A DNA stretch of 35,785 nucleotides from Dehalococcoidia bacterium (lineage in GTDB: Bacteria; Chloroflexota; Dehalococcoidia; GIF9; UBA5629): NCBI GenBank assembly GCA_028716085.1, contig JAQUQM010000009.1:1-35785 (forward strand). The letters run 5' to 3'. Within the stretch, counting starts at the first letter, position 1. The number at the start of each line of letters is the position of its first letter. The notes under the pieces are model-generated. The model made no database searches. It saw only the letters and a program-made list of their open reading frames with translations, and had not been told where the DNA came from. Shown piece after piece: positions 8,844 through 35,785 of this stretch. A program made the translations under genes and the position numbers.

Positions 8844-10145
8844 CTAATCTATATAAAGGTAATCTGTTACCTGCTCGAATATATGCCGGGCTGCCACAAC
8901 CCTGTAATAATATTCTTGTTTGACTGACGGTTCACAACCGCTCAGGGAGATAGCTTTATATGCATTGAGCAGTACCTCGCGTTGCATAGCCAATCCGCGG
9001 TAAATCATATTAATATTCCACATCGGTCGTTTACTGGCCCACCAGAACTGGCAACTGTGGAGAGCAGCATCCAAAGTATTTCTTGCCCGGGTAGCGAATT
9101 CCCGGCTGACCTGGCTATCCGCTACCTCTTCTGCCTTTCGGGAAACCGCCATTGTGAGGTCAAGGTGCTCCCATTGCTTGGTGTGCACCGGATTGTTCTT
9201 GTCTTTCCAGAGAGGATAGTAATTCTGCATTTTTATATCGTCAGCGGAAGTGCTCCATGAAGACGGCCTAGGACTTATTTTGGGTCCGCGGGGGAAGATG
9301 TCCAGTAATTCGCTAATCTTAACGATCTCAATTTCCTTTTGCGCACCTGTCGATTCATATTCAAATAGCTTGCGATGCTGTTCCGCCAGCGGCTTTTGTT
9401 CACGCATAACCCTTGTCGAGTCTTTCTGAGGCGTTAGCGTTTCATAAACCTCTCCAAGGAACAGCTTGTCCCAGTGCTGAATATGATGTCCGAATGTTTC
9501 AGCATCCATGGCAGTGATGACATAGATATCTCCCTCTCCCTGATGCAATTGCTTCAGATGCTCAATAAAACCCTGTCCGTCAAGATCTTTGAAGCTGATT
9601 TTATTACTCAAAATGTCATCGCGGAAAAAGACGGCGATGTCACCATCAATATCATCGATACCATGAATTACATCCATCGGCCACGATACAGGACATGCAA
9701 TGCCGCTTACAATTATCCATTCATGGCGGGATTCTACGATAGGGCTTACGATATCCCGGGAATAACACATCTCGGGAGGGAAAAACCCTCTTGGCATGTA
9801 AGAATCACCAAGATATTGCCTGTTGGTTATATAGTTAAGCCTGATTTGCCGCTCAACTTCCGCCTTAGGTATCAGCGGCAGAATAGGATGGTATTTGCCC
9901 GAACCTGTAAATTCAATCTGGCCCCTCTCGGCCAGTTTGCTCATCCTGTTTAAAATGTCCGTATATCCATAAAGACCGAGCATTTCGGACAGCACACCGT
10001 TTATATTAAAGGTGGCTTTGGCATGCGGAAATTCATCAAACACATCCAGGATGGGGCGGTAAGACTCATTACTGACTTTCATCAAAATCGATGGAGTTTG
10101 AGTTGGCGGTTGATAAAAATGAAACAGAGGCGCCCAGTAAATCAT
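8844..10145 (-). CDS. GH57 family glycoside hydrolase (amylase/amylopullulanase-like)
   Basis: A second, shorter GH57 enzyme of 433 residues, only distantly related to the one at 6403. It shows the family's YQPP at 11-14 in place of HQP, GKYHPILPLI at 83-92, a candidate nucleophile Glu125 in FFPPEMCYS and a candidate acid/base Asp214 in TAMDAETFGHH. The remainder is a helical C-terminal domain ending near QVTDYLYID. It lacks the DUF1925/1926 beta-sandwich of its neighbour. The substrate is probably an alpha-glucan, given the glgA, glgC and sugar-kinase neighbours. Whether it hydrolyses, debranches or branches cannot be read from sequence. There is no signal peptide. The ATG at 10143-10145 begins the typical family N-terminus and lies 9 bases after the ROK kinase stop. 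Confidence 0.85.
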   Translation of the reverse strand: MIYWAPLFHFYQPPTQTPSILMKVSNESYRPILDVFDEFPHAKATFNINGVLSEMLGLYGYTDILNRMSKLAERGQIEFTGSGKYHPILPLIPKAEVERQIRLNYITNRQYLGDSYMPRGFFPPEMCYSRDIVSPIVESRHEWIIVSGIACPVSWPMDVIHGIDDIDGDIAVFFRDDILSNKISFKDLDGQGFIEHLKQLHQGEGDIYVITAMDAETFGHHIQHWDKLFLGEVYETLTPQKDSTRVMREQKPLAEQHRKLFEYESTGAQKEIEIVKISELLDIFPRGPKISPRPSSWSTSADDIKMQNYYPLWKDKNNPVHTKQWEHLDLTMAVSRKAEEVADSQVSREFATRARNTLDAALHSCQFWWASKRPMWNINMIYRGLAMQREVLLNAYKAISLSGCEPSVKQEYYYRVVAARHIFEQVTDYLYID

Positions 10146-25903: not shown

Positions 25904-26686
25904 CTATTTGCCCATTCTCTTTTTTACATGGGCGAGCACCTTTTCCATGGTCTCACCAGCCCTGCCGTCGATGCGGACTGCAGCCTGCGCATCCATCGGC
26001 GTCGAGCCCAGGTTGATAATCACCAGCCTGGCCCCGGCGTCCCTGGCATACATGGGTATATAGGCAGCGGGATAGACGATCAGGGTTGAACCGATCACTA
26101 TGCAAAGGTCGCATAGACTGGCGCGCCTAGCAGCCTCGTTAAGTACGCCCTGCGGCAAAGCCTCTCCGAAAAACACGGCGTCCGGCTTCAGCATACCCCC
26201 GCAGTGCTCACATTCGGGTATCCCTTCTTTTTCCACCCGGACTATGATCTCCGCCATGGGAAAACGCTTGTTACAGCCCAGGCAGCGCACAAACTGCATA
26301 TTGCCGTGCAGTTCGAATACTATTTCCGGCGTGTTGCCGGCAACCTGGTGCAGGTTGTCGATATTCTGCGTGATCACACAGTCGAGCTTGCCCAGCCTTT
26401 CCAGCTCCACAATGGCGTAATGCGCGGCATTGGGCTTTGCTTCCTTGACCAGGCCGCCTTCCTCCAGCAGCTTCCACTGCATCTTGCGCACCTCCGGCCT
26501 GGCTACGAATTTCTGTATGGTAAAGTCGTCGGGGTCGTACTTGTTCCAGATACCGTCCTTCCCCCTGAAATCGGGTATCCCCGATTCTGTGCTGATGCCT
26601 GCGCCCGTGAATACGATAATGCGCTTCGCTTCTACGATCAGGCCGGCCACTTTTTCGGTCAAAACTTCGCTGTCGCGCCCGCTCAT
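25904..26686 (-). CDS. Sir2-family NAD-dependent protein deacylase
   Basis: Removes acetyl or other acyl groups from protein lysines using NAD. All core sirtuin residues are present in this 260-residue protein: GAGIS at 28-32, GIPDFRG at 36-42, TQNIDNLH at 107-113, catalytic His127 in ELHGN, and four zinc ligands Cys135, Cys138, Cys159 and Cys162. The single-domain length is typical of bacterial CobB. It starts at ATG 26684-26686 with GGAG 5 bases before it, overlapping the stop of a possible leader peptide by an ATGA junction. It is on the same strand as the lipoprotein genes but separated from them by 68 bases, and divergent from birA. A metabolic target such as acetyl-CoA synthetase is likely by family analogy only. 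Confidence 0.94.
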   Translation of the reverse strand: MSGRDSEVLTEKVAGLIVEAKRIIVFTGAGISTESGIPDFRGKDGIWNKYDPDDFTIQKFVARPEVRKMQWKLLEEGGLVKEAKPNAAHYAIVELERLGKLDCVITQNIDNLHQVAGNTPEIVFELHGNMQFVRCLGCNKRFPMAEIIVRVEKEGIPECEHCGGMLKPDAVFFGEALPQGVLNEAARRASLCDLCIVIGSTLIVYPAAYIPMYARDAGARLVIINLGSTPMDAQAAVRIDGRAGETMEKVLAHVKKRMGK

Positions 26687-26736
26687 GCCTCTCCGCCTGC
26701 TGAATTTTTTACCAAGCTATACATACGATTATGCAT
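26683..26736 (-). CDS. Possible 17-residue leader peptide coupled to the Sir2 gene
   Basis: ATG at 26734-26736 opens a 17-codon frame reading MHNRMYSLVKNSAGGEA. Its TGA overlaps the Sir2 ATG in the classic ATGA arrangement. AGAGGAG lies about 7 bases before the ATG, a better ribosome site than the one before Sir2 itself. The frame is short and could arise by chance. I do not recognise the peptide. Confidence 0.35.
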   Translation of the reverse strand: MHNRMYSLVKNSAGGEA

Positions 26737-26765
26737 AGTCCATCTCCTCTGATATATTATATCTT

Positions 26766-27545
26766 ATGAAACCGCAGCCGGATATAGAAAGGTATTTAAA
26801 ACAGCACATTAAAACCAGCCTGGTAGGCAGGGAGCTGCACTACCTGGAGAGTGTTACTTCCACACAGGATGTTGCCAGGGACCTGGCGGAAAAAGGATCT
26901 CCCGAGGGCACGGTTGTCATTGCCGGCACACAAAAAGCGGGCAGGGGCAGGCTGGGCAGGACCTGGTTCTCTCCCGAAGGCAGCCTGGCGCTGTCCGTCA
27001 TACTCAAGCCGTCAACGGATGAGATGCGCTTCCTTCCCGCCGTCTCTTCCCTGTCTGTGTTCCATGCCATCAACAGGCTCGGTGTGCCGGCGCAGATTAA
27101 ATGGCCCAATGACGTGCTTATCAAGGGAAAGAAGGTCTGCGGCATCCTCATTGAAAGCAGGCCGCAAGCCGGGGATTTTCACTGCGCCATTGTCGGTATA
27201 GGCATCAATGTCAGTTTCGATATCCGCAAATATCCCGAGATAGCGGAACTGGCCACCAGCATTTCTGCCCACTCCAGCCGGGAGGTGAGCGTGAATGAGG
27301 TAATCATTAATCTGATTGACGAGCTGGAAAGGCATTATCAGAAGATTGCGGATACGGACAGCCTGCGCAGTGAATGGCTCGCTAATATGGATACCATCGG
27401 CCGTCGAATCCGCGTCAACATGAACGGCAATATCGAGGACGGTGTGGCTGAAACCATTAACCGGGCAGGCAACCTGGTGCTGCGCCGGGACGACGGCACG
27501 GACCTGGAAATCGTTGCGGGCGATGTGACGATAGTTAAAGATTAA
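26766..27545 (+). CDS. birA: Biotin-[acetyl-CoA-carboxylase] ligase, monofunctional
   Basis: Activates biotin as biotinyl-AMP and transfers it to a lysine of carboxylase carrier domains. The 259-residue chain starts directly in the catalytic domain: ESVTSTQDVARDLA at about 28-41, the adenylate-binding loop GRGRLGRTW at 59-67, KWPNDV at 112-117 and CGILIE at 125-130. The C-terminal SH3-like domain begins near GRRIRVNMNGN. The N-terminal winged helix of bifunctional BirA repressors is missing, so it should not regulate transcription. ATG 26766 has no clear Shine-Dalgarno, and a TATATT lies just upstream, which suggests a very short or absent leader. It is divergent from Sir2. A REP-like inverted repeat follows the stop. 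Confidence 0.95.
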   Translation: MKPQPDIERYLKQHIKTSLVGRELHYLESVTSTQDVARDLAEKGSPEGTVVIAGTQKAGRGRLGRTWFSPEGSLALSVILKPSTDEMRFLPAVSSLSVFHAINRLGVPAQIKWPNDVLIKGKKVCGILIESRPQAGDFHCAIVGIGINVSFDIRKYPEIAELATSISAHSSREVSVNEVIINLIDELERHYQKIADTDSLRSEWLANMDTIGRRIRVNMNGNIEDGVAETINRAGNLVLRRDDGTDLEIVAGDVTIVKD

Positions 27546-27591
27546 AAGACGATCTTGCCGGAGTTCTTTCGAAGCGTTACGTAAATGAAAC

Positions 27592-27613
27592 GGGCGGGTC
27601 TGAAGACCCGCCC
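27592..27613. repeat. Perfect 10-bp inverted repeat (REP-like or terminator)
   Basis: GGGCGGGTCT and AGACCCGCCC flank a two-base loop in the convergent gap between birA (plus) and the stomatin gene (minus). On the plus strand it is followed by CTACATTATTTTT, so it may end birA transcription, though the T-run is about nine bases late. Very similar GC-rich dyads occur as dispersed repeats in many bacterial genomes (recollection, not checked). Only one copy was seen here. Confidence 0.7.
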
Positions 27614-27652
27614 CTACATTATTTTTCCCTTACATTATTTATTATATGAATG

Positions 27653-28417
27653 TTATTTTTTCTGTCCTTCGGACGGCTTGTTCAGCAGGGGCATGATCAG
27701 GTCGATGGGCAGGGGGAATACGATGGTGTTGGTTTTCTCTGTCGATATGGTGATAAGGGTCTGCAGGTAGCGCAGCTGCATGGCCTGCGGCTGGCCGGAG
27801 ATGATCCTCGCCGCCTCCGCCAGTTTCTCGGCAGCTTGTGCTTCACCGTCGGCATGCACGATCTTGGCCCGGCGTTCCCTCTCCGCCTCCGCCTGCGCCG
27901 CCATAGCCCTTTGCATGGTTTCGGGAAGCTGTACGTCCCTGACCTCCACCATGCTTACCTTAATGCCCCAGGGTTCGGTTCCCTCATCGATCATGACCTG
28001 AAGTTTCTCATTCACCTTGTCCCTGTGCCCCAGCAAATCTTCCAGGTCGCTCTGGCCCACTACATTTCGCAGCGTAGTCTGGCACAGCAGGGAGGTAGCC
28101 CTCATATACTGCTCTACATTGAGAACGGCCGACTCCGGTTTCATGACGCGGAAATAGACCACCGCGTCCACTTTAACCGTAACGGTGTCCATGGTGATGC
28201 ACTCCTGCTGCGGCACGTCCATGGTCACCACGCGCAATTCCACTTTAACCATGCGTTCGATAAACGGGATCAACAAAATAAGGCCCGGTCCCCTGACGCC
28301 CACGTATCTCCCCAGGCGGAAGACCACGCCGCGTTCGTACTCGTTAACGATCCTGATGGAAGACACCAGCACCATCAGGATAAAAATTGCCAGAACTATG
28401 ATTCCTACAAAGTCCAT
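27653..28417 (-). CDS. SPFH/stomatin-like (slipin) membrane protein
   Basis: A membrane-anchored band-7 protein of 254 residues. One N-terminal membrane segment (about 4-25: [16 protein letters not shown]) is followed by the SPFH domain with [22 protein letters not shown] and the diagnostic AVVYFRV stretch. A charged coiled-coil region (about 185-215: [20 protein letters not shown]) precedes the C-terminus. Bacterial slipins form oligomeric membrane scaffolds and are commonly paired with NfeD proteases, as here. AGGAGG lies 7 bases before ATG 28417. The nfeD stop is only 10 bases upstream, so the two are an operon. Substrate and role in membrane quality control are family-level inference. Confidence 0.93.
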
Positions 28418-28427
28418 GTTTACCTCC

Positions 28428-29735
28428 TCATTTCTTCCTGGTTACATATAACTTGAGATTGTCCACTTTCTGAATCACCACTTCTTCACCCGGCTGCGCG
28501 TTCCCGCTGTCCAGCTCCGCCTTCCACAATTCACCTTCGACAAGCACCATACCTTTAGGTTCCAGGGCTGTTTTTACGATGGCGGATTGCCCGATAATGC
28601 CCTCACGCCCCGTGGTTACCTTTCTCGTCTGCCCTCTTATGGTAGCCCATACCAAAAAGGCCACGAAGCCGGCGAAGAAAATGGCTGTAACGACAATAAG
28701 CCCTATATCTACCTGCATGGAAGCTTCACTCTCACTAAAAAGTATTAACGAGCCGATCACCAGAGATATTATGCCACCGGTGGTCAGTATACCATAGGCA
28801 GGTACAAAAATCTCAGTGATGAACAGGCCGACTGCCAGCAAAATCAATAACACCCCCGCCCAGTACGCGTTCAAAACGCCCAGAGCGTAGAAGGCAAAGA
28901 ACAGGCAGATACCGCCGATCACCCCCGGGAAGATCAGGCCGGGATTGGATATTTCAGTAATGATGCCTATGGACGCCACGGTCATCAAGATATAGGCCAT
29001 GTTGGGATGGCTGATCATGTGCAGGAAATTTTCCACACCGTTCATCTCGCTTCTGACGATAACCGCGCCATCTGTGTCGATGGTAACGGTACGTCCGTCG
29101 GCAAGGGTAACCGTTTTGCCGTCGATCTGCCTGATCACGCCGCCGAGGTCATCCGCGAGAAAGTCGACCAGCTTCGATTCAACGGCCTGTGAGGCTGTAA
29201 AGGACTTGCTTTCCCGTACCGCCGCCTCTACCAGCGCAGGGTCGCGACCGCGTTTCTCCGCTATGCTCTGTATCCAGGCCACCGAATATTCCGTGGCCTT
29301 TTTCTGGGTATCCGCGGGCATCTCCTCACCCACGCTCACAGGGTGCGCCGCACCTATGCTGGTGGCGGGCGCCATGGCCGAGAGATGGGCGGACACGGTG
29401 ATGAAAGTTCCCGCCGACGCCGCCCAGGCGCCGTGCGGATACACGTAAACTACTACAGGCACCCCTGCATTCATGATGCGGCGGACGATGTCCTCGGTGG
29501 AGTTGAGCAGCCCGCCGGGCGTATCCAGCTCTATGATGCAGGCCACGCTTCCCGCCTGCTCCGCCTCACTTATGCCCCGGCTGATATAGTCGGAGACCAC
29601 GGGGACGATATTGCCCTTGACCTGCAGCACGCGGATTTCGCGCCCGTCGGCGCTGACATTACCTCCGGTCAGGGAAAGTATCAGCCCCAGCGCCAGGCAG
29701 AGTAGATAAACCGTCCGCAATACCAGCCTGAACAT
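28428..29735 (-). CDS. NfeD-type membrane serine protease (ClpP-like, long form)
   Basis: Membrane protease of the NfeD/STOPP family, partner of stomatin-like proteins. In the chosen frame an N-terminal signal or anchor ([19 protein letters not shown]) precedes a ClpP-like domain. Its nucleophile Ser is in [10 protein letters not shown] (about residue 107), and the catalytic Lys is in QKKATEY (about 145-146), giving the Ser-Lys dyad known from the archaeal homologue. Several hydrophobic helices follow (about 230-370), then a C-terminal OB-fold NfeD domain ([28 protein letters not shown]). The frame is open to ATG 29783, but ATG 29733-29735 starts the hydrophobic segment and is preceded by GAGGTG. 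That ribosome site is very close, so the start is uncertain by some residues. Confidence 0.92.
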
Positions 29736-29787
29736 CACCTCTATATTGTATAACAGACGGCGCCGGGACGTTGAATAAATCAAGTAT

Positions 29788-29809
29788 GGGGGTGCGGTGC
29801 GGCACCCCC
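29788..29809. terminator. Inverted repeat between merR-type gene and nfeD gene
   Basis: GGGGGTGC and GCACCCCC form an 8-bp perfect stem around a six-base loop, 28 bases beyond the 3' end of the MerR-type gene. It could terminate that gene. However, no clean T-run follows on the minus strand, only a mixed AT-rich stretch, so the role is uncertain. Confidence 0.45.
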
Positions 29810-29836
29810 GTACTGCGTAAGAAGGAGAACCCGGTA

Positions 29837-30652
29837 CTACAAACCCGTGATGGGGAACTGGACTTCCGTGATATATTCTCTGGAATCCCGTACCTGCGCA
29901 GCTCCCCGTATATAAACCTCCCTGTTGGGAGCGGCAAGCCGGCAGCCGTTCCTCATCATCCAGGCGATGAGAATCTTATATGCCTCCTCGGATGTTTCAA
30001 CCGTTCCTTTAAAAGTGATGCAGGCCGCCTTTTCCACGCGGGGAAGGTCCTTTACTTTAATTCTGTCCGAAGAATCGACCCTGCCCTCATAGGGCATAGC
30101 CACCTCTACATCGACTTCCTTTTCCCTGTATCCCATATCATGAAAAATTGCCAGAGGCGAGGGGGTCATCTTCACCTGCCGGCTCACCATGTAACTGACC
30201 AGTTCGACAAAAAGAGGATAAATATCGGCATAGGTGGGCACAGTCTGCCTCAGCGATGCCACCGCCTGTGCTTCCAGCGGTTTCACCACAACTTCATTTA
30301 AGGGCGAGGCTTCCTCCTTCCCTATTTGCTTGACCCATTCCTCCATCAGGCCCAGGCGTATCCGGTAGTCACGCAGGCGACTGCTGAGCTCGGCCTGCTT
30401 CAAATTTAGCAGTTGGATAATGTTTTCGTCCGACAGGTTGTTATCAAGCAGCCCGGATACCTCCTCCAGGGAAAGCCCGAGACCCTTGAAAACAATTATC
30501 TTGTTCAACCGGGGCAACTGGTCTTCCGAGTAGTAACGGTAACCGGTATATTTATCTATTTCCGCCGGCTTGAGCAGCCCGATTTCATCGTAATAGCGCA
30601 GGGCCTTGATCGTTACATGCCCCAGCCTGGCGAACTTGCCTATCTTGAGCAT
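29837..30652 (-). CDS. MerR-family transcriptional regulator with GyrI-like effector domain
   Basis: A 271-residue regulator resembling the BmrR group. The N-terminal MerR helix-turn-helix (about 1-70) reads MLKIGKFARLGHVTIKALRY then YYDEIGLLKP and the wing YTGYRYYSEDQL. A dimerisation coiled coil follows (about 75-110). The C-terminal half (about 120-271) fits a GyrI-like small-molecule binding fold, including VAMPYEGRV and YITEVQFPI. The frame is open to 30682, but ATG 30650-30652 is preferred because it has GGAG about 9 bases upstream and the exact family N-terminus. The promoter at 30699-30729 has the geometry MerR proteins act on, implying self-regulation. No transporter gene, the usual target, is adjacent. 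The ligand is not known. Confidence 0.92.
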   Translation of the reverse strand: MLKIGKFARLGHVTIKALRYYDEIGLLKPAEIDKYTGYRYYSEDQLPRLNKIIVFKGLGLSLEEVSGLLDNNLSDENIIQLLNLKQAELSSRLRDYRIRLGLMEEWVKQIGKEEASPLNEVVVKPLEAQAVASLRQTVPTYADIYPLFVELVSYMVSRQVKMTPSPLAIFHDMGYREKEVDVEVAMPYEGRVDSSDRIKVKDLPRVEKAACITFKGTVETSEEAYKILIAWMMRNGCRLAAPNREVYIRGAAQVRDSREYITEVQFPITGL

Positions 30653-30698
30653 TTTAAGCTCTCCGTATAAATATTCCTCCATAAAGGCCTTTGCTTTT

Positions 30699-30729
30699 AG
30701 TATAAAGTCTCCCCCTAGGGTAGAGTCAA
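30699..30729 (-). promoter_or_regulatory. MerR-type promoter with 19-bp spacer and operator dyad
   Basis: On the minus strand TTGACT (30724-30729) and TATACT (30699-30704) are 19 bases apart, two more than normal. The spacer contains a dyad of the form CTCTACCC-TAGGGGGAG. This overlong spacer with a central palindrome is the hallmark of promoters activated by MerR-family proteins. It lies about 45 bases upstream of the MerR-type start codon, so the gene is likely autoregulated. Confidence 0.85.
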
Positions 30730-30732
30730 GGG

Positions 30733-30762
30733 GCGCCGTTGGTATCGGCGCTGAAATTTTTT
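30733..30762 (+). terminator. Hairpin with T-run, function unclear
   Basis: GCGCCG (30733-30738) and CGGCGC (30746-30751) pair around a seven-base loop and are followed after five bases by six Ts. It looks like a weak plus-strand terminator. No plus-strand gene ends just before it, so it may be chance or a block against transcription towards hisZ. Confidence 0.35.
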
Positions 30763-30860
30763 CTGCCGGTTTTTATTATGGGAAACTGGTTTTTCATTAA
30801 ATATCTTATCAGTTAGTTTATTTGAGCCATGCGGGTATGGTCTATTGCCAGGTATCATCC

Positions 30861-30995
30861 TATAATAGTGCACAAGGAGGTTTATTAAAACTGAATAAAC
30901 CTGACCCAACCCCCGGGGGTCCTCGCCTTCTCAATTGAATACGTTCCAGCGATGTGCAGCGGGCGCCACTACCAGGTGGCGCCTGCTGCATTTTA
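30861..30995 (+). ncRNA. Candidate structured short transcript or relic leader upstream of hisZ
   Basis: A perfect TATAAT at 30861-30866 without a convincing -35 is followed by AAGGAGG. A perfect 8-bp inverted repeat overlaps that ribosome site (GGTTTATT 30879-30886, AATAAACC 30894-30901). A 12-bp palindrome follows (30909-30920). The segment ends in a strong 14-bp hairpin (30956-30989, GGCGCCAC with GTGGCGCC extended by GCAGC and GCTGC, one G-T pair) followed by ATTTT. No ATG, GTG or TTG frame starts at the ribosome site. It lies in a 438-base gene-free stretch. It may be a small RNA of about 120 bases, an attenuator or a decayed gene; none is proven. Confidence 0.35.
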
Positions 30996-31032
30996 CGAAA
31001 GCTCTGTCACAGCCTTTTACTATTATGTCTAA

Positions 31033-31061
31033 TTGAAGCTAAGTACATATTGGTGTAGAAT
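31033..31061 (+). promoter_or_regulatory. Sigma70-type promoter of the his operon
   Basis: TTGAAG (31033-31038), a 17-base spacer and TAGAAT (31056-31061) precede hisZ with a predicted start near 31068 and a short leader. AGAGGA lies about 11 bases before ATG 31091. Because this promoter is downstream of the hairpin at 30956-30989, that hairpin would not attenuate transcripts from here. Confidence 0.65.
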
Positions 31062-31090
31062 TATCCAACTTCACAGAGGATATTTTTTAT

Positions 31091-32335
31091 ATGGAAAGCC
31101 AGAGGTGTAAAGGCGCGCGCGACCTGCTCGCGGAAGATATGGAACGCTTCCGCCAGGTGGAGGACGCCTTCCGTAACTCGTGTATCAACTGGGGCTACAG
31201 GGAGATCAAGACCCCCACCCTGGAATATATACACCTGTTCACCGCCGCGGGCACGCTTACGCCTGCCATGCTCAGCCGCGTCTATTCCTTCCTCGACTGG
31301 GACGGCTGGGGCGGAGAGCGCATCGTGCTGCGGCCTGACGGCACCATTCCCGCAGCCAGGCTCTACAGCGAAAATTTCAGCGGATCGAAGATCGCCCGCC
31401 TCTACTACGTAACCAACGTCTTCGCTTTCGAGGAAACGGGAAAGGAGAACCGCGAAAAGTGGCAGTGCGGCGTGGAGCTGCTGGGCGACGGCAACCCCAC
31501 CTCAGAGGCCGAGATCATCGGCCTGGCGCTGGAAGTGCTCAATACGCTGGGATTGGCTAAAGCCAGCCTCAAGCTCTCACACGCGGGCGTGCTCAAGGCG
31601 CTCATAGCGGAGCTCAAGCTGAATACCGAGGAGAAGGCCGACCTGCTTGACGAGATACTGGAGGGCAACTGGCAGGCGCTTTCCAAAGTCAACGGCAATA
31701 AAAAAATCGCCGCCGCTGTCTCCACACTGATGAACCTCAAAGGCAGGTCCAGCGGCTTCCTGGTGAACCTGGCGGCCATGCCCGGTCTTTCCCGCAGCAT
31801 CGTCCGCGAGCTGGAAGCCTTCGCTGGCGTCACCGGTCTCCTCGATACGCTGGGATATAAGTACGAGATCGACTTCACCTCCATCAAGGGCTTCGAGTAT
31901 TACACGGGCCTTTGCTTCAAGATACGCGCCAACAACACCAAGGTCTGCAGCGGTGGCAGGTACGACAACCTTGTCGGCCTGGTGGGCGGCGGCAATGTGC
32001 CCGCCTGCGGCTTCGCCCTGTACCTGGATGAACTGGCCGCGCAGGTCAGGCCCTGGTCGCGGCAGAAGGCGGAAAAGACCGTCATCGTCAGGGTGGACAG
32101 CGCAGGCGCCGAGTCCGTCAAGGAAGCCTTCAAGCTTTCCGCGGCTCTGCGCAGCGCGGGACTGATCGCGGAGCTCGACTTCCGCGGCAGCCAGCTCGAT
32201 GCGCGCTGGGAGATATCCGTCCAGGAAAAGAAACCGGGTTACACGGTTAAAGATAAAATTAAAAACCTGCAGAAGAAGGCCGCGGACACCAACGAGGTGG
32301 TCAATATAATCGGGGGTTTCGGGAAAGTTGGTTAG
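31091..32335 (+). CDS. hisZ: ATP phosphoribosyltransferase regulatory subunit
   Basis: A histidyl-tRNA-synthetase paralogue without tRNA-charging activity that partners short HisG in histidine synthesis. The 414 residues keep the synthetase fold: motif 1 region GARDLLAEDMERFRQVE, GFEYYTGLCF, and CSGGRYDNLVG then GFAL of motif 3. In motif 2 the position where HisRS has an FRxE arginine reads NVFAFEE, so the catalytic arginine is absent, which argues for HisZ over HisS. A C-terminal anticodon-binding-like domain (about 325-410: KTVIVRVDSAG) is retained. The gene overlaps hisG by 8 bases. Its co-occurrence with hisG is the other reason for the HisZ call. Confidence 0.9.
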   Translation: MESQRCKGARDLLAEDMERFRQVEDAFRNSCINWGYREIKTPTLEYIHLFTAAGTLTPAMLSRVYSFLDWDGWGGERIVLRPDGTIPAARLYSENFSGSKIARLYYVTNVFAFEETGKENREKWQCGVELLGDGNPTSEAEIIGLALEVLNTLGLAKASLKLSHAGVLKALIAELKLNTEEKADLLDEILEGNWQALSKVNGNKKIAAAVSTLMNLKGRSSGFLVNLAAMPGLSRSIVRELEAFAGVTGLLDTLGYKYEIDFTSIKGFEYYTGLCFKIRANNTKVCSGGRYDNLVGLVGGGNVPACGFALYLDELAAQVRPWSRQKAEKTVIVRVDSAGAESVKEAFKLSAALRSAGLIAELDFRGSQLDARWEISVQEKKPGYTVKDKIKNLQKKAADTNEVVNIIGGFGKVG

Positions 32336-33755
32336 CGGCGTAGCGCAGGATACCAGGCTGGCATTGCCCAAGGGCGTAATGCTCTCCCGGACCGCCGAGT
32401 TTTTAAACAGCATCGGCCTGGGATTCGAGGACTATACCTCTAAAACGCGTATTTACCGGCTGCGCTCGCAGACCATGCCCTCGCTGTGCGCCAAGATGCT
32501 CAACGAGAGGGACATCCCCGTACAGGTGGCCATCGGCAACTACGACTTCGGCATCTGCACCTCCGACTGGCTGCAGGAGCTTCAGGCGAGGTACCCCGCC
32601 AGTAACGTGGTTAAGGTGTGCGATCTGGAATACGATACCGCCGGCATCTTCCTGGCCTTCAGCCGCAATGCCTCATTTACTGAAGATACACTGCGGGACA
32701 GCGATAGCACTGTGCGCATAGTGACGCAATATCCCGCGCTGGCAGAGTCCGCCGCATATAAAATGAGATTGAAAAAGTTCCGCATCTTCCCGCTGTGGGG
32801 ATCGGCCGAGGCCTACCTGCCGGAGAACGCCGACCTCGCCGTCATCAGCGCCGCGGACGAGGCAGCGCTGGCTGCCATGAACCTGCGGGCGGTGAGGAAG
32901 ATAGCCGACAGCAGCGCCTGCATTATTGCACACAGGGAAGGATTGCAGACCGCCGACTTCAGCCGCATACTGGCGGTTTTTTCGTCGGCGTTCACCGGCA
33001 GCGGCAAATCCCGCGTTAAAACGCCCGCGCCCTCCAGCGTAATTGACAACGATTACGCACCCGCCGCCGCGAACGGCAATATCTGGCTGGCGCTGGCCGA
33101 CGGGCACCAGCAGGTGCACACTGCGGCCTTCCTGGAAAAGGCGGGCATCAAAATGCAGGGTTATTCCAAAGACGATATGCGGCGCCGGCCTGCGAGCAAT
33201 ATGGACGGCGTTAATATAAAGGTAATCCGGCCGCAGGACATGCCGCAGCAGGTGGCCAACGGCAACTTCGACCTGGCAGTCACGGGCAAGGACTGGCTGC
33301 TCGACCACCTCTACCAGTTCCCTTCCAGCCCTGTAGTGGAGCTGGCAGACCTGGGCTTCGGCAGGGTCAGGGTAGTCGCCGTGGTCGGTGAGGACGTCCC
33401 CGCCGATTCCATCGAAGGCATCAGGGAGCTGATCAAAAGCGGCAAACTAACGCCTCTCAGGATAGCTTCTGAATACGTCAATATCGCTGACAAGTACCTG
33501 CGCGACAGGCACATTGCGCGTTACCGGGTGATACCCACCTGGGGCGCCACCGAGGTTTACCTGCCCGAGGACGCCGACATGCTTATAGAGAACACGGAGA
33601 CGGGACAGACGCTGGCCAGGCACAGGCTCAAGATCATCGACACGCTCTTCGAGTCCACCGCCTGCCTCATCGGCAACCGCCTGAGCCTGGATTCAACCGA
33701 TAAGAGGGCCAAGATCGAGAAACTGGTTAAAATATTCCGCAGTATTGCAGGGTAA
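32328..33755 (+). CDS. hisG: Tandem (duplicated) HisG-like ATP phosphoribosyltransferase fusion
   Basis: HisG joins PRPP and ATP in the first step of histidine synthesis. Short HisG is about 210 residues and long HisG about 290. This product is 475 residues and contains two HisG-like copies (about 10-225 and 251-475) joined by a Pro/Ala-rich linker. Both copies have the GNxD motif (GNYDFGICTSDWLQE at 70-84; GNFDLAVTGKDWL at 312-324) and a W-G-x-x-E-x-YLPE segment (157-166; 405-414). Copy 1 keeps the N-terminal LALPKG (11-16) but lacks the PRPP loop (AVISAADEAAL). Copy 2 has LALADG instead, but keeps a PRPP-loop-like ENTETGQTL (421-429). The start is TTG 32328, overlapping hisZ. This is an in-frame fusion with no frameshift seen. 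Confidence 0.88.
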   Translation: MVSGVAQDTRLALPKGVMLSRTAEFLNSIGLGFEDYTSKTRIYRLRSQTMPSLCAKMLNERDIPVQVAIGNYDFGICTSDWLQELQARYPASNVVKVCDLEYDTAGIFLAFSRNASFTEDTLRDSDSTVRIVTQYPALAESAAYKMRLKKFRIFPLWGSAEAYLPENADLAVISAADEAALAAMNLRAVRKIADSSACIIAHREGLQTADFSRILAVFSSAFTGSGKSRVKTPAPSSVIDNDYAPAAANGNIWLALADGHQQVHTAAFLEKAGIKMQGYSKDDMRRRPASNMDGVNIKVIRPQDMPQQVANGNFDLAVTGKDWLLDHLYQFPSSPVVELADLGFGRVRVVAVVGEDVPADSIEGIRELIKSGKLTPLRIASEYVNIADKYLRDRHIARYRVIPTWGATEVYLPEDADMLIENTETGQTLARHRLKIIDTLFESTACLIGNRLSLDSTDKRAKIEKLVKIFRSIAG

Positions 33756-33762
33756 AATTGAA

Positions 33763-35064
33763 ATGAAAGTAATCAAGGACATTAAGCAGGCGAAGAAGCT
33801 GCTGCAAAGGGCGGTGACCCACGATGTCACGGCCAGGCCGGGAGTTAAGGCAGGCACGGTCGAGGACACCGTCAGGGAGATCATTGCCAGTGTCAGGAAA
33901 GAAGGCGACGCCGCCCTCTTCGAGCTCACCGAGCGCTTCGACGGCGCCAGGCTTAAGTCGCTGGAGGTCGGCGCGCAGGAAATGGCGGCTGCCCGCAAGG
34001 CGGTCGACCCCGACCTGCTCAAAGCTTTGAAAGTCGCTGCAGCCAGGATTGAAAAGTTCCATAAGACCTGCATGCGTAAATACGGCAAAGGGTTTTTCGT
34101 GGAAGGGCTGGGGCAGCAGGTGCTGCCGCTGGAACGCGTCGGCATCTACGTGCCGGGCGGCACGGCAGCCTATCCGTCCACGGTATTGATGACCGCCATA
34201 CCGGCCAAAGTGGCCGGGGTTAAAGAGATAATCATGACGACGCCCTGCGGCAAGGACGGCAGGGTGCCGATCAATACGCTGGCGGCCGCCGCAATTGCCG
34301 GGGTAAACCGGGTCTTCAGGCTCGGCGGGGCGCAGGCCATTGCAGCCCTCGCGCTGGGCACGGAATCCGTGCCTAAAGTAGACAAGATCTGCGGGCCGGG
34401 CAATATCTGGGTGATGACGGCCAAGAAGCTGGTCTACGGCATGGTGGATATCGATGCGCTCCAGGGCCCCAGCGAGGTGGTGATCATAGCCGACGGCTTT
34501 GCCGATCCCGCGCTGTGCGCGGCCGACCTCATCGCGCAGGCCGAGCATGACGCCATGGCAACCTCCATTTTTATTACAAACTCCGCTGCGCAGGCGGAAA
34601 AGGTGCAGTCGGAGCTCAGCAGGCAGCTGTCCAGGCTGAAACGCTACGATATAGCATCCAAGGCGTTGGAGACCAACGGCTATATTGTGATCGTGAAAAA
34701 CCTGGATGAGGCCATCGAGCTGTCCAACCTCTTCGCGCCGGAGCACCTTTCGATGATGGTGAGGGACGCCCGGGAATACCTGGGGCAGGTCACGCATGCC
34801 GGCTGTATCTGCCTGGGCGAGTTCTCGCCTGTGGTGCTGGGCGATTATATAGCGGGCCCCAGCCATGCCCTGCCCACGGGAGGCAGCGCGCGCTTTAGCT
34901 CGCCGCTCACGGTACAGGACTTTCTCAAGGTAAGCAGCGTCATCGCGCTGGACAACAATGCGATTAAAGTCCTCGGGCCGCACGCGCATATCATGGCCAC
35001 CAGGGAAGGGCTCACCGGCCATGCCCACGCGGTGCAGCTCAGGTTGAACAAGAAGAAGAACTAA
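33763..35064 (+). CDS. hisD: Histidinol dehydrogenase
   Basis: Oxidises L-histidinol to histidine in two NAD-dependent steps at a zinc site. The 433 residues show the family N-terminus then VGIYVPGGTAAYPST and LGGAQAIAALALGTESVP. KICGPGNIWVMTAKK, AEHDAMATSIFIT with the catalytic Glu-His, and EHLSMM with a second Glu-His follow. SHALPTGGSARFSSPL completes the C-terminal signature. The frame can be read from TTG 33745, overlapping hisG, but ATG 33763 gives the usual start and lies 8 bases after the hisG stop. AGGG is the only ribosome-like site. It is followed by hisC after one base. Confidence 0.97.
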   Translation: MKVIKDIKQAKKLLQRAVTHDVTARPGVKAGTVEDTVREIIASVRKEGDAALFELTERFDGARLKSLEVGAQEMAAARKAVDPDLLKALKVAAARIEKFHKTCMRKYGKGFFVEGLGQQVLPLERVGIYVPGGTAAYPSTVLMTAIPAKVAGVKEIIMTTPCGKDGRVPINTLAAAAIAGVNRVFRLGGAQAIAALALGTESVPKVDKICGPGNIWVMTAKKLVYGMVDIDALQGPSEVVIIADGFADPALCAADLIAQAEHDAMATSIFITNSAAQAEKVQSELSRQLSRLKRYDIASKALETNGYIVIVKNLDEAIELSNLFAPEHLSMMVRDAREYLGQVTHAGCICLGEFSPVVLGDYIAGPSHALPTGGSARFSSPLTVQDFLKVSSVIALDNNAIKVLGPHAHIMATREGLTGHAHAVQLRLNKKKN

Positions 35065-35065
35065 G

Positions 35066-35785
35066 ATGTTAACTGAAAAAGACGTTGAAAAAATGATACG
35101 CGCCAACCTCCGCAGCATGAAGGCTTACACACCCGTGGACCCGGCCGACGTGCTGAGGGGCCGCGCGGAGGTTCCCGCGGAGGAGACCGCCAAGCTGGAC
35201 GGAAACGAGAACCCCTACGGGTGCTCTCCTCGCGTGCAAAAGGTTCTGGCGGAATGCTTCTTATATAACAGGTATCCCGACCCCGACCAGCGCGAGGTAA
35301 GGAAGGCGCTGGCAAAATATACGGGGATGAAGCCGGAGTATATCGTGGCCGGCGCGGGCAGCGACGACCTCATCGATATCATCCTGCGCCTCTTCATCGA
35401 GCCCGGGAACAGGGTGATCAACTGCCCTCCCACCTTCGGCATGTACCCTTTCTGCACGGAGATAGCCGGAGGGAAGGTGGTCAAAGTGCCGCGAAAAAAG
35501 GACTTCTCTCTGGATATAGCGGCGATCAAAAAAGCGGTTGACGCTAAAACCAGGGTCATCTTCATCGCCTCGCCCAACAATCCCACCGGGAACCAGGCCG
35601 GTGAGGCCGAGATTAAAAAGCTGCTGTCGCTGGAGCTGATCGTGGTCGTGGACGAGGCCTATGTTGAGTTCAGCGGCAATTCGCTGATTTCGCTGGTGCC
35701 GCAGTATGCCAATTTGATTGTATTGCGCACCTTCAGCAAGTGGGCCGGACTGGCAGGGGTGAGGGGGGGTTACGGCGTATTCCCC
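35066..35785 (+). CDS. hisC: Histidinol-phosphate aminotransferase, N-terminal part (cut by window edge)
   Basis: PLP enzyme converting imidazole-acetol phosphate to histidinol phosphate. ATG 35066 follows the hisD stop by one base. The 240 visible residues contain KLDGNENPYGCSP for the substrate phosphate, YPDPDQREVRKALAKYTG, AGAGSDDLIDII, SPNNPTGN and VVDEAYVEFSG with the cofactor Asp and Tyr. The Schiff-base Lys is in TFSKWAGLAGVRGGYG. This order is diagnostic for HisC. The frame stays open to the last base, so roughly the last third is missing. It is the fourth gene of hisZ-hisG-hisD-hisC. Confidence 0.95.
   Translation, partial: MLTEKDVEKMIRANLRSMKAYTPVDPADVLRGRAEVPAEETAKLDGNENPYGCSPRVQKVLAECFLYNRYPDPDQREVRKALAKYTGMKPEYIVAGAGSDDLIDIILRLFIEPGNRVINCPPTFGMYPFCTEIAGGKVVKVPRKKDFSLDIAAIKKAVDAKTRVIFIASPNNPTGNQAGEAEIKKLLSLELIVVVDEAYVEFSGNSLISLVPQYANLIVLRTFSKWAGLAGVRGGYGVFP

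Follow-up and report, generated by a model that had tools for sequence, protein, structure and literature searches.

The window, a stretch of 35,785 nucleotides from a Dehalococcoidia bacterium, contains an uninterrupted 475-codon frame encoding a single 475-aa protein that holds two copies of HisG (TTG start at 32328, stop codon at 33753-33755). This is a real, conserved and apparently undescribed architecture of a known enzyme, ATP phosphoribosyltransferase. We consider it likely that the protein is a covalently joined pseudo-heterodimer of HisG whose single active site would lie in copy 2, be completed by an arginine of copy 1 and be regulated by HisZ.

Two HisG domains in one chain

An earlier note on this DNA had proposed that one frame held two HisG copies, and domain searches bore this out. 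Pfam PF01634 matched the whole protein in two stretches (1e-59), and both halves passed when searched separately (copy 1, 7.2e-21; copy 2, 1e-37). Each half also exceeded the TIGR00070 equivalog cut-off of 75.75 bits, with 102.8 bits for copy 1 and 133.4 bits for copy 2. The two copies share 29% identity across 226 residues (E 3e-31). In a Foldseek search against the PDB the best 50 matches were all HisG chains, as expected for the periplasmic-binding-like HisG fold; since both halves also pass the HisG cut-offs, an origin of the second half in another periplasmic-binding family is excluded. The tandem was the sole source of HisG matches in its genome, a 165-contig draft, so no second HisG that might do the work was found there.

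AlphaFold predicted the window protein with a pLDDT of 92.8 and a pTM of 0.90 (95 sequences), and a distant tandem member, from a different alignment of 26 deep-clade sequences, with a pLDDT of 91.1 and a pTM of 0.89. Loosely tethered halves would be unlikely to reach such pTM values, so a fixed arrangement of the halves is predicted. The halves are packed confidently in the prediction, presumably as in the canonical HisG dimer.

ATP phosphoribosyltransferase has been described in short and long forms only (PMC9734150, PMC10795190), and the tandem agrees fully with neither. With two HisG domains per chain it departs from the short form, which has a single catalytic domain of about 200-230 aa, but it resembles that form in having a HisZ partner gene and no HisG_C. 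The C-terminal HisG_C domain (PF08029) that defines the long form was not found in a Pfam search of the protein. The PRPP loop D/E-x-x-x-T-G-x-T/S-L that is typical of HisG is present in copy 2 but not in copy 1.

The his locus around the tandem

The gene order is hisZ, tandem hisG, hisD and hisC (Table 1). The hisZ frame overlaps tandem hisG by 8 nt, and its 414-aa product scored 213.9 bits with TIGR00443 and 224.2 bits with TIGR00442, both under the curated cut-offs. The true HisS is encoded by a separate gene that scores 492.8 bits in a comparison that gave the hisZ 223.8 bits, which excludes hisZ as HisS and agrees with the earlier remark that HisZ is still present. A hisZ gene lies upstream in 81/81 tandem loci with enough upstream DNA and is directly adjacent in 77; at the other four (L031, L045, L057 and L059) it is upstream but non-adjacent.

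For hisD, the ATG at 33763 is a likelier start than that of the listed TTG frame from 33745. No hisB (PF00475) was found in this genome assembly. Because relatives such as L030, in which the gene at the hisC position matches PF00155, have hisB right behind hisC, the missing gene probably sits in the assembly gap where the contig ends inside hisC (35785). A MerR-type regulator with a GyrI-like ligand-binding domain is encoded divergently upstream of hisZ (29837-30682, minus strand). Rfam gave no match within 26000-35785 and PHROGs gave no match; promoter and terminator scans gave scores weakly above those of shuffled sequences.

Table 1. Features of the tandem hisG locus in the window. Residue numbers refer to the 475-aa protein; PaHisGS, Psychrobacter arcticus HisGS.
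Feature	Position	Strand	Match or conservation
hisZ, histidyl-tRNA-synthetase paralogue, ATP phosphoribosyltransferase regulatory subunit	31091..32335	+	PF13393 1.7e-58
Tandem hisG, 475 aa, TTG start	32328..33755	+	
HisG copy 1, residues 9-222, site-dead half keeping the putative trans arginine	32352..32993	+	PF01634, TIGR00070
Copy 1 K15-G16-V17, KGR position (PaHisGS K30-G31-R32)	32370..32378	+	
Copy 1 R41-I-Y-R44; R41 equivalent to PaHisGS Arg56	32448..32459	+	
Copy 1 N59, ATP gamma-phosphate Arg73 position, lost	32502..32504	+	
Copy 1 degenerate PRPP loop, residues 172-184, V-I-S-A-A-D-E-A-A-L region	32841..32879	+	
Linker between copies, residues 223-250	32994..33077	+	pLDDT about 67-70 over most
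HisG copy 2, residues 251-475, putative catalytic half	33078..33752	+	PF01634 1e-37
Copy 2 D258-G259-H260, replacing KGR	33099..33107	+	invariant, 116/116
Copy 2 R286-R287-P288	33183..33191	+	R287 114/116, P288 113/116
Copy 2 R301, PaHisGS Arg73 equivalent	33228..33230	+	116/116
Copy 2 PRPP loop, E421-N-T-E-T425-G426-Q-T-L429	33588..33614	+	T425 and G426 116/116
hisD, histidinol dehydrogenase	33763..35064	+	PF00815 1.1e-158
hisC, histidinol-phosphate aminotransferase, cut by contig end	35066..35785	+	frame in sequence

Distribution of the tandem

The tandem had been thought possibly unique; it proved instead to be a widespread architecture within its class. A protein search of related genomes recovered it at full length in 18 of 21 relatives, and the same frame occurs in a relative with 85% identity. 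When each species was represented by one genome, a scan turned up 80 tandem loci, the records of which are named Dehalococcoidia, Dehalococcoidales, Dehalococcoidaceae or Chloroflexi/Chloroflexota. A survey of the class Dehalococcoidia found HisG in 280 of 294 genomes, about 160 of them with the tandem (hand count ~163) and the remaining ~117 with single HisGs, where a tandem was a match end-to-end or nearly so at 1e-60 or better and a single HisG a match at 1e-24 or worse. None of about 130 genomes from other Chloroflexota classes carried the tandem; only single HisGs matched there, nearly always to copy 2. Complete single-contig chromosomes carry the tandem, including 1.4-2.1 Mb genomes of one family (f14), which are probably those of Dehalococcoides and Dehalogenimonas.

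Two genomes, G118 (L131, L203) and G235 (L132, L204), have a tandem HisG with a weak copy 1 plus a separate single HisG. Six genomes of the same order (f3 g17: G018, G019, G181, G394, G406 and G418), 90-95% complete, gave no HisG match and are possible histidine auxotrophs; their congeners have the tandem.

Active-site residues are divided between the copies

An alignment was made of 116 distinct tandems together with PaHisGS and single-copy HisGs; the PaHisGS numbering was taken from PMC9734150 and verified against the residues named there. In PaHisGS, Arg56 extends from one subunit over the dimer interface to the PRPP pyrophosphate in the partner's site, and the R56A substitution causes a 42-fold loss of activity (PMC9734150). 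Arg32 also stabilises the leaving group; the two arginines partly compensate for each other, and both matter for catalysis (PMC9734150). Arg73 holds the gamma phosphate of ATP (PMC10795190).

The motifs quoted in the earlier note, LALPKG and AVISAADEAAL in copy 1 and LALADG and ENTETGQTL in copy 2, are present in the window protein. Copy 2 alone carries nearly all of the cis substrate residues (PRPP loop, R301 and TGxD). The TGx[TS] of the PRPP loop is found in 116/116 copy 2 sequences versus 2/116 copy 1 sequences (gone in 114), and the Arg73 position of copy 1 is arginine in only 20/116 (gone in 96). The D94 equivalent is present in 116/116 copy 2 and 87/116 copy 1 sequences. The halves are thus neither both intact nor both dead, so the complementary loss that had been proposed stands, and copy 1, without PRPP loop and ATP arginine, is probably the non-catalytic copy that had been suspected.

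The equivalent of Arg56, which acts in trans in PaHisGS, is found in copy 1. R41 is arginine in 104/116 tandems and is invariant in the deep clade (26/26); in the 12 tandems that lack it, the arginine three residues on is kept instead, and R41 or R44 is therefore present in 116/116. The R56 position of copy 2, two residues before R286, has been lost and is mostly G, L, A or V. Cis residues in copy 2 only, together with a trans R56 in copy 1 only, are expected if there is one live site; two identical sites are beyond the capacity of the tandem sequence.

At the KGR position copy 1 has K in 90/116, G in 116/116 and R in 65/116 sequences, the variants being KGR (65), KGK (15) and, across one whole sub-clade, [TAR]GD. 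The motif is not a good marker: more than half of the single-copy HisGs sampled in the class have Ser at the Arg32 position, copy 2 has DGH and a copy 1 sub-clade has [TAR]GD. The earlier proposal that the active site was split between LALPKG of copy 1 and the PRPP loop of copy 2 is not supported in that form, nearly all cis residues being in copy 2; the contribution of copy 1 is probably the trans arginine and not LALPKG. A mean-field analysis of co-evolution between the copies (Neff about 95) gave scattered top pairs, and the pair 43-428 seems explained by one sub-clade.

Origin by internal duplication, with probable long-form ancestry

In a maximum-likelihood tree with E. coli HisG as the root, every tandem copy fell within a single clade (100/98), in which the copy 1 sequences (100/99) and the copy 2 sequences (100/98) formed clades of their own; the stem of copy 1 is twice as long as that of copy 2 (1.03 versus 0.51). 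Both copies have loop lengths of 15 and 9 residues (116/116 each), a combination absent from the single HisGs sampled. Because the copies form one rooted clade and have these loop lengths in common, the tandem was produced by a single internal in-frame duplication, and a fusion of two unrelated HisGs is excluded.

The sister of the tandem clade (84/74) is L186, a single HisG with HisG_C. The wider clade around the two is supported at 99/98, and those of its members that were tested with Pfam are long-form HisGs with HisG_C; the domain was found in the nearest single-copy relatives L186 (48.8 bits), L166, L167, L169, L101 and L109. Single-copy HisGs of the same class that adjoin HisZ fall in a different clade. 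Since its nearest single-copy relatives are long-form, the tandem lineage seems to have exchanged a fused HisG_C domain for HisZ. L186 keeps both the R56 loop (DSRSYRP) and the PRPP loop (DNTTSGRT), and the losses in both tandem copies are therefore derived.

L186 itself (genome G063, contig C98, about 8990-9965) encodes a 325-aa HisG_L that resembles the pre-duplication form, and its PIGH motif is reminiscent of the PDGH of copy 2. No HisZ match was found near L186 within the DNA stretch examined. Loci such as L195 and L197, from further families of the class, encode a single HisG with a weak HisG_C match or a tail of 100-110 aa, and have just upstream a HisZ-like gene, often of 460-500 aa; this is an apparent long form with HisZ, unforeseen by the two-form scheme.

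Among 160 pairs with dS below 2, copy 1 had a median dN/dS of 0.16 and copy 2 one of 0.13. Purifying selection therefore acts on both, and copy 1 is functional, not decaying.

Proposed mechanism and alternatives

In the mechanism we propose, the fused pseudo-heterodimer would replace the HisG homodimer of HisZ-dependent ATP phosphoribosyltransferase. Copy 2 would bind PRPP and ATP at the sole functional active site; copy 1, which no longer has a PRPP loop or ATP arginine of its own, would persist as a fixed partner. R41 of copy 1, with R44, would cross the intramolecular interface to the PRPP pyrophosphate in the copy 2 site, a role modelled on that of Psychrobacter HisG Arg56 from the neighbouring subunit. 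There would be one active site per HisG chain and two per HisZ tetramer, and HisZ would set activation and histidine inhibition. The arrangement goes back to one in-frame duplication, and the closest single-copy relatives now living of the ancestor in which it occurred are long-form HisGs. We infer the trans role of R41/R44, the competence of copy 2 for catalysis with DGH, and the stoichiometry of one site per chain. Because KGR is replaced by an invariant DGH, catalysis by copy 2 must differ somewhat from that of other HisGs, though a general loss of function appears unlikely. Arginine donation may not be the whole role of copy 1, since its KG is kept in most sequences.

One alternative is that copy 1 is a structural scaffold or HisZ-docking half, its R56-loop conservation being incidental and copy 2 using its own R286/R287. 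In an alternative alignment these arginines of copy 2 may stand for R56, which would weaken the complementarity, and R287 and P288 beside the R56 position are highly conserved (Table 1); a dimeric platform is also needed, since HisG dimers lie on either side of HisZ in solved complexes (PMC9734150). P288, however, aligns without gaps to the Pro that single HisGs conserve, and L186 and copy 1 likewise have an arginine at the R287 (R59) column, which makes it appear ancestral, not compensatory. With R41 or R44 retained in every sequence and the deep clade invariant at R41, we think this reading improbable.

It is equally doubtful that copy 1 is a ligand-sensing regulatory domain, with a periplasmic-binding-like cleft of HisG origin for histidine, AMP or another effector, that controls copy 2 in place of HisG_C. 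HisZ, the known histidine sensor of the HisZ-dependent forms, is upstream at every testable locus and makes a second sensor unneeded, and the preserved R56 equivalent would be left unexplained, whereas donation of an arginine in trans explains it. What speaks for a sensor is that the nearest single-copy relatives carry HisG_C and the tandem does not, and that copy 1 has many invariant or near-invariant residues absent from copy 2 (E60, N71, Y72, C77, E84 and R147).

Catalysis or substrate binding in both clefts, with copy 1 performing a divergent half-reaction or keeping a second site, is very improbable given the near-universal loss of its PRPP loop and ATP arginine, despite the retention of K15 and of the overall fold and the strong purifying selection. 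We know of no HisG that binds PRPP without the PRPP loop. An assembly artefact, a recent duplication or a decaying pseudo-domain, which the draft state of the window genome might have suggested, is refuted by the occurrence of the frame in about 160 genomes, complete chromosomes among them, by the low identity of the copies and by the dN/dS of copy 1.

Comparison with known systems

On balance we favour the view that the tandem is a third architecture of ATP phosphoribosyltransferase: an asymmetric fused HisG with a single composite site, in which the dead copy would be a built-in trans-activator alongside HisZ, derived from a long-form-like ancestor. It would give a textbook allosteric enzyme a third form, fixed across much of one bacterial class, with cultured dechlorinators probably among its bearers. 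Through the fusion the HisG dimer loses its two-fold symmetry, and either copy can be mutated without the other. Since the cis and trans residues lie in different halves of one gene, activation by HisZ via the trans arginine would be directly testable. No paper on hisG in Dehalococcoidia or Dehalococcoides was found, and the accessible part of a survey of histidine gene fusions that includes two Dehalococcoidetes genomes does not mention a tandem HisG (PMC1963479). In line with the earlier note, no description of one was found in the accessible portions of the literature searched, including that on pseudo-dimers.

The tandem resembles the short-form HisG_S that works with HisZ in Psychrobacter arcticus and Acinetobacter baumannii (PDB 5M8H, 8OY0) in its HisG fold without HisG_C (Foldseek TM 0.8-0.89, normalised by the matched short-form chain), its neighbouring hisZ, and its Arg56-type loop, PRPP loop and Arg73. 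Unlike the HisG_S homodimer, which has two identical sites in a 4+4 hetero-octamer, it is fused and has one intact PRPP loop; its putative catalytic copy has DGH for KGR, and the tree places it nearer the long form. Long-form HisG_L proteins are its nearest single-copy relatives, with similar loop letters in L186 (PPDDAE / NTTSGRT), but the tandem lacks HisG_C and uses HisZ, and where they have a regulatory domain it has a second HisG copy. The role proposed for copy 1 is akin to that of HisZ, a dead paralogue of HisRS by which HisG is activated and regulated. The two differ in descent and in linkage: HisZ comes from HisRS and forms its own chain, while copy 1 comes from HisG and is part of the fused protein.

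Gene elongation by in-tandem duplication and fusion is known for hisA/hisF, hisB and hisD, where it is ascribed to the time before LUCA, and no internal repeats were found in other histidine enzymes (PMC7284861). The tandem hisG, likewise a two-module protein made by duplication and fusion, qualifies that statement; unlike those elongations it is clade-restricted, and a single-copy sister survives. In another group of proteins, pseudo-dimeric fused enzymes, are the two-domain yeast glyoxalase I, pepsin-type proteases and monomeric LAGLIDADG endonucleases; to our knowledge no such fusion is known for ATP phosphoribosyltransferase. As in those enzymes, a homodimer appears to have been fused into a single chain and then specialised asymmetrically, and the tandem HisG offers a clean example, in which complementary residues were lost after fusion and the single-copy sister L186 keeps both.
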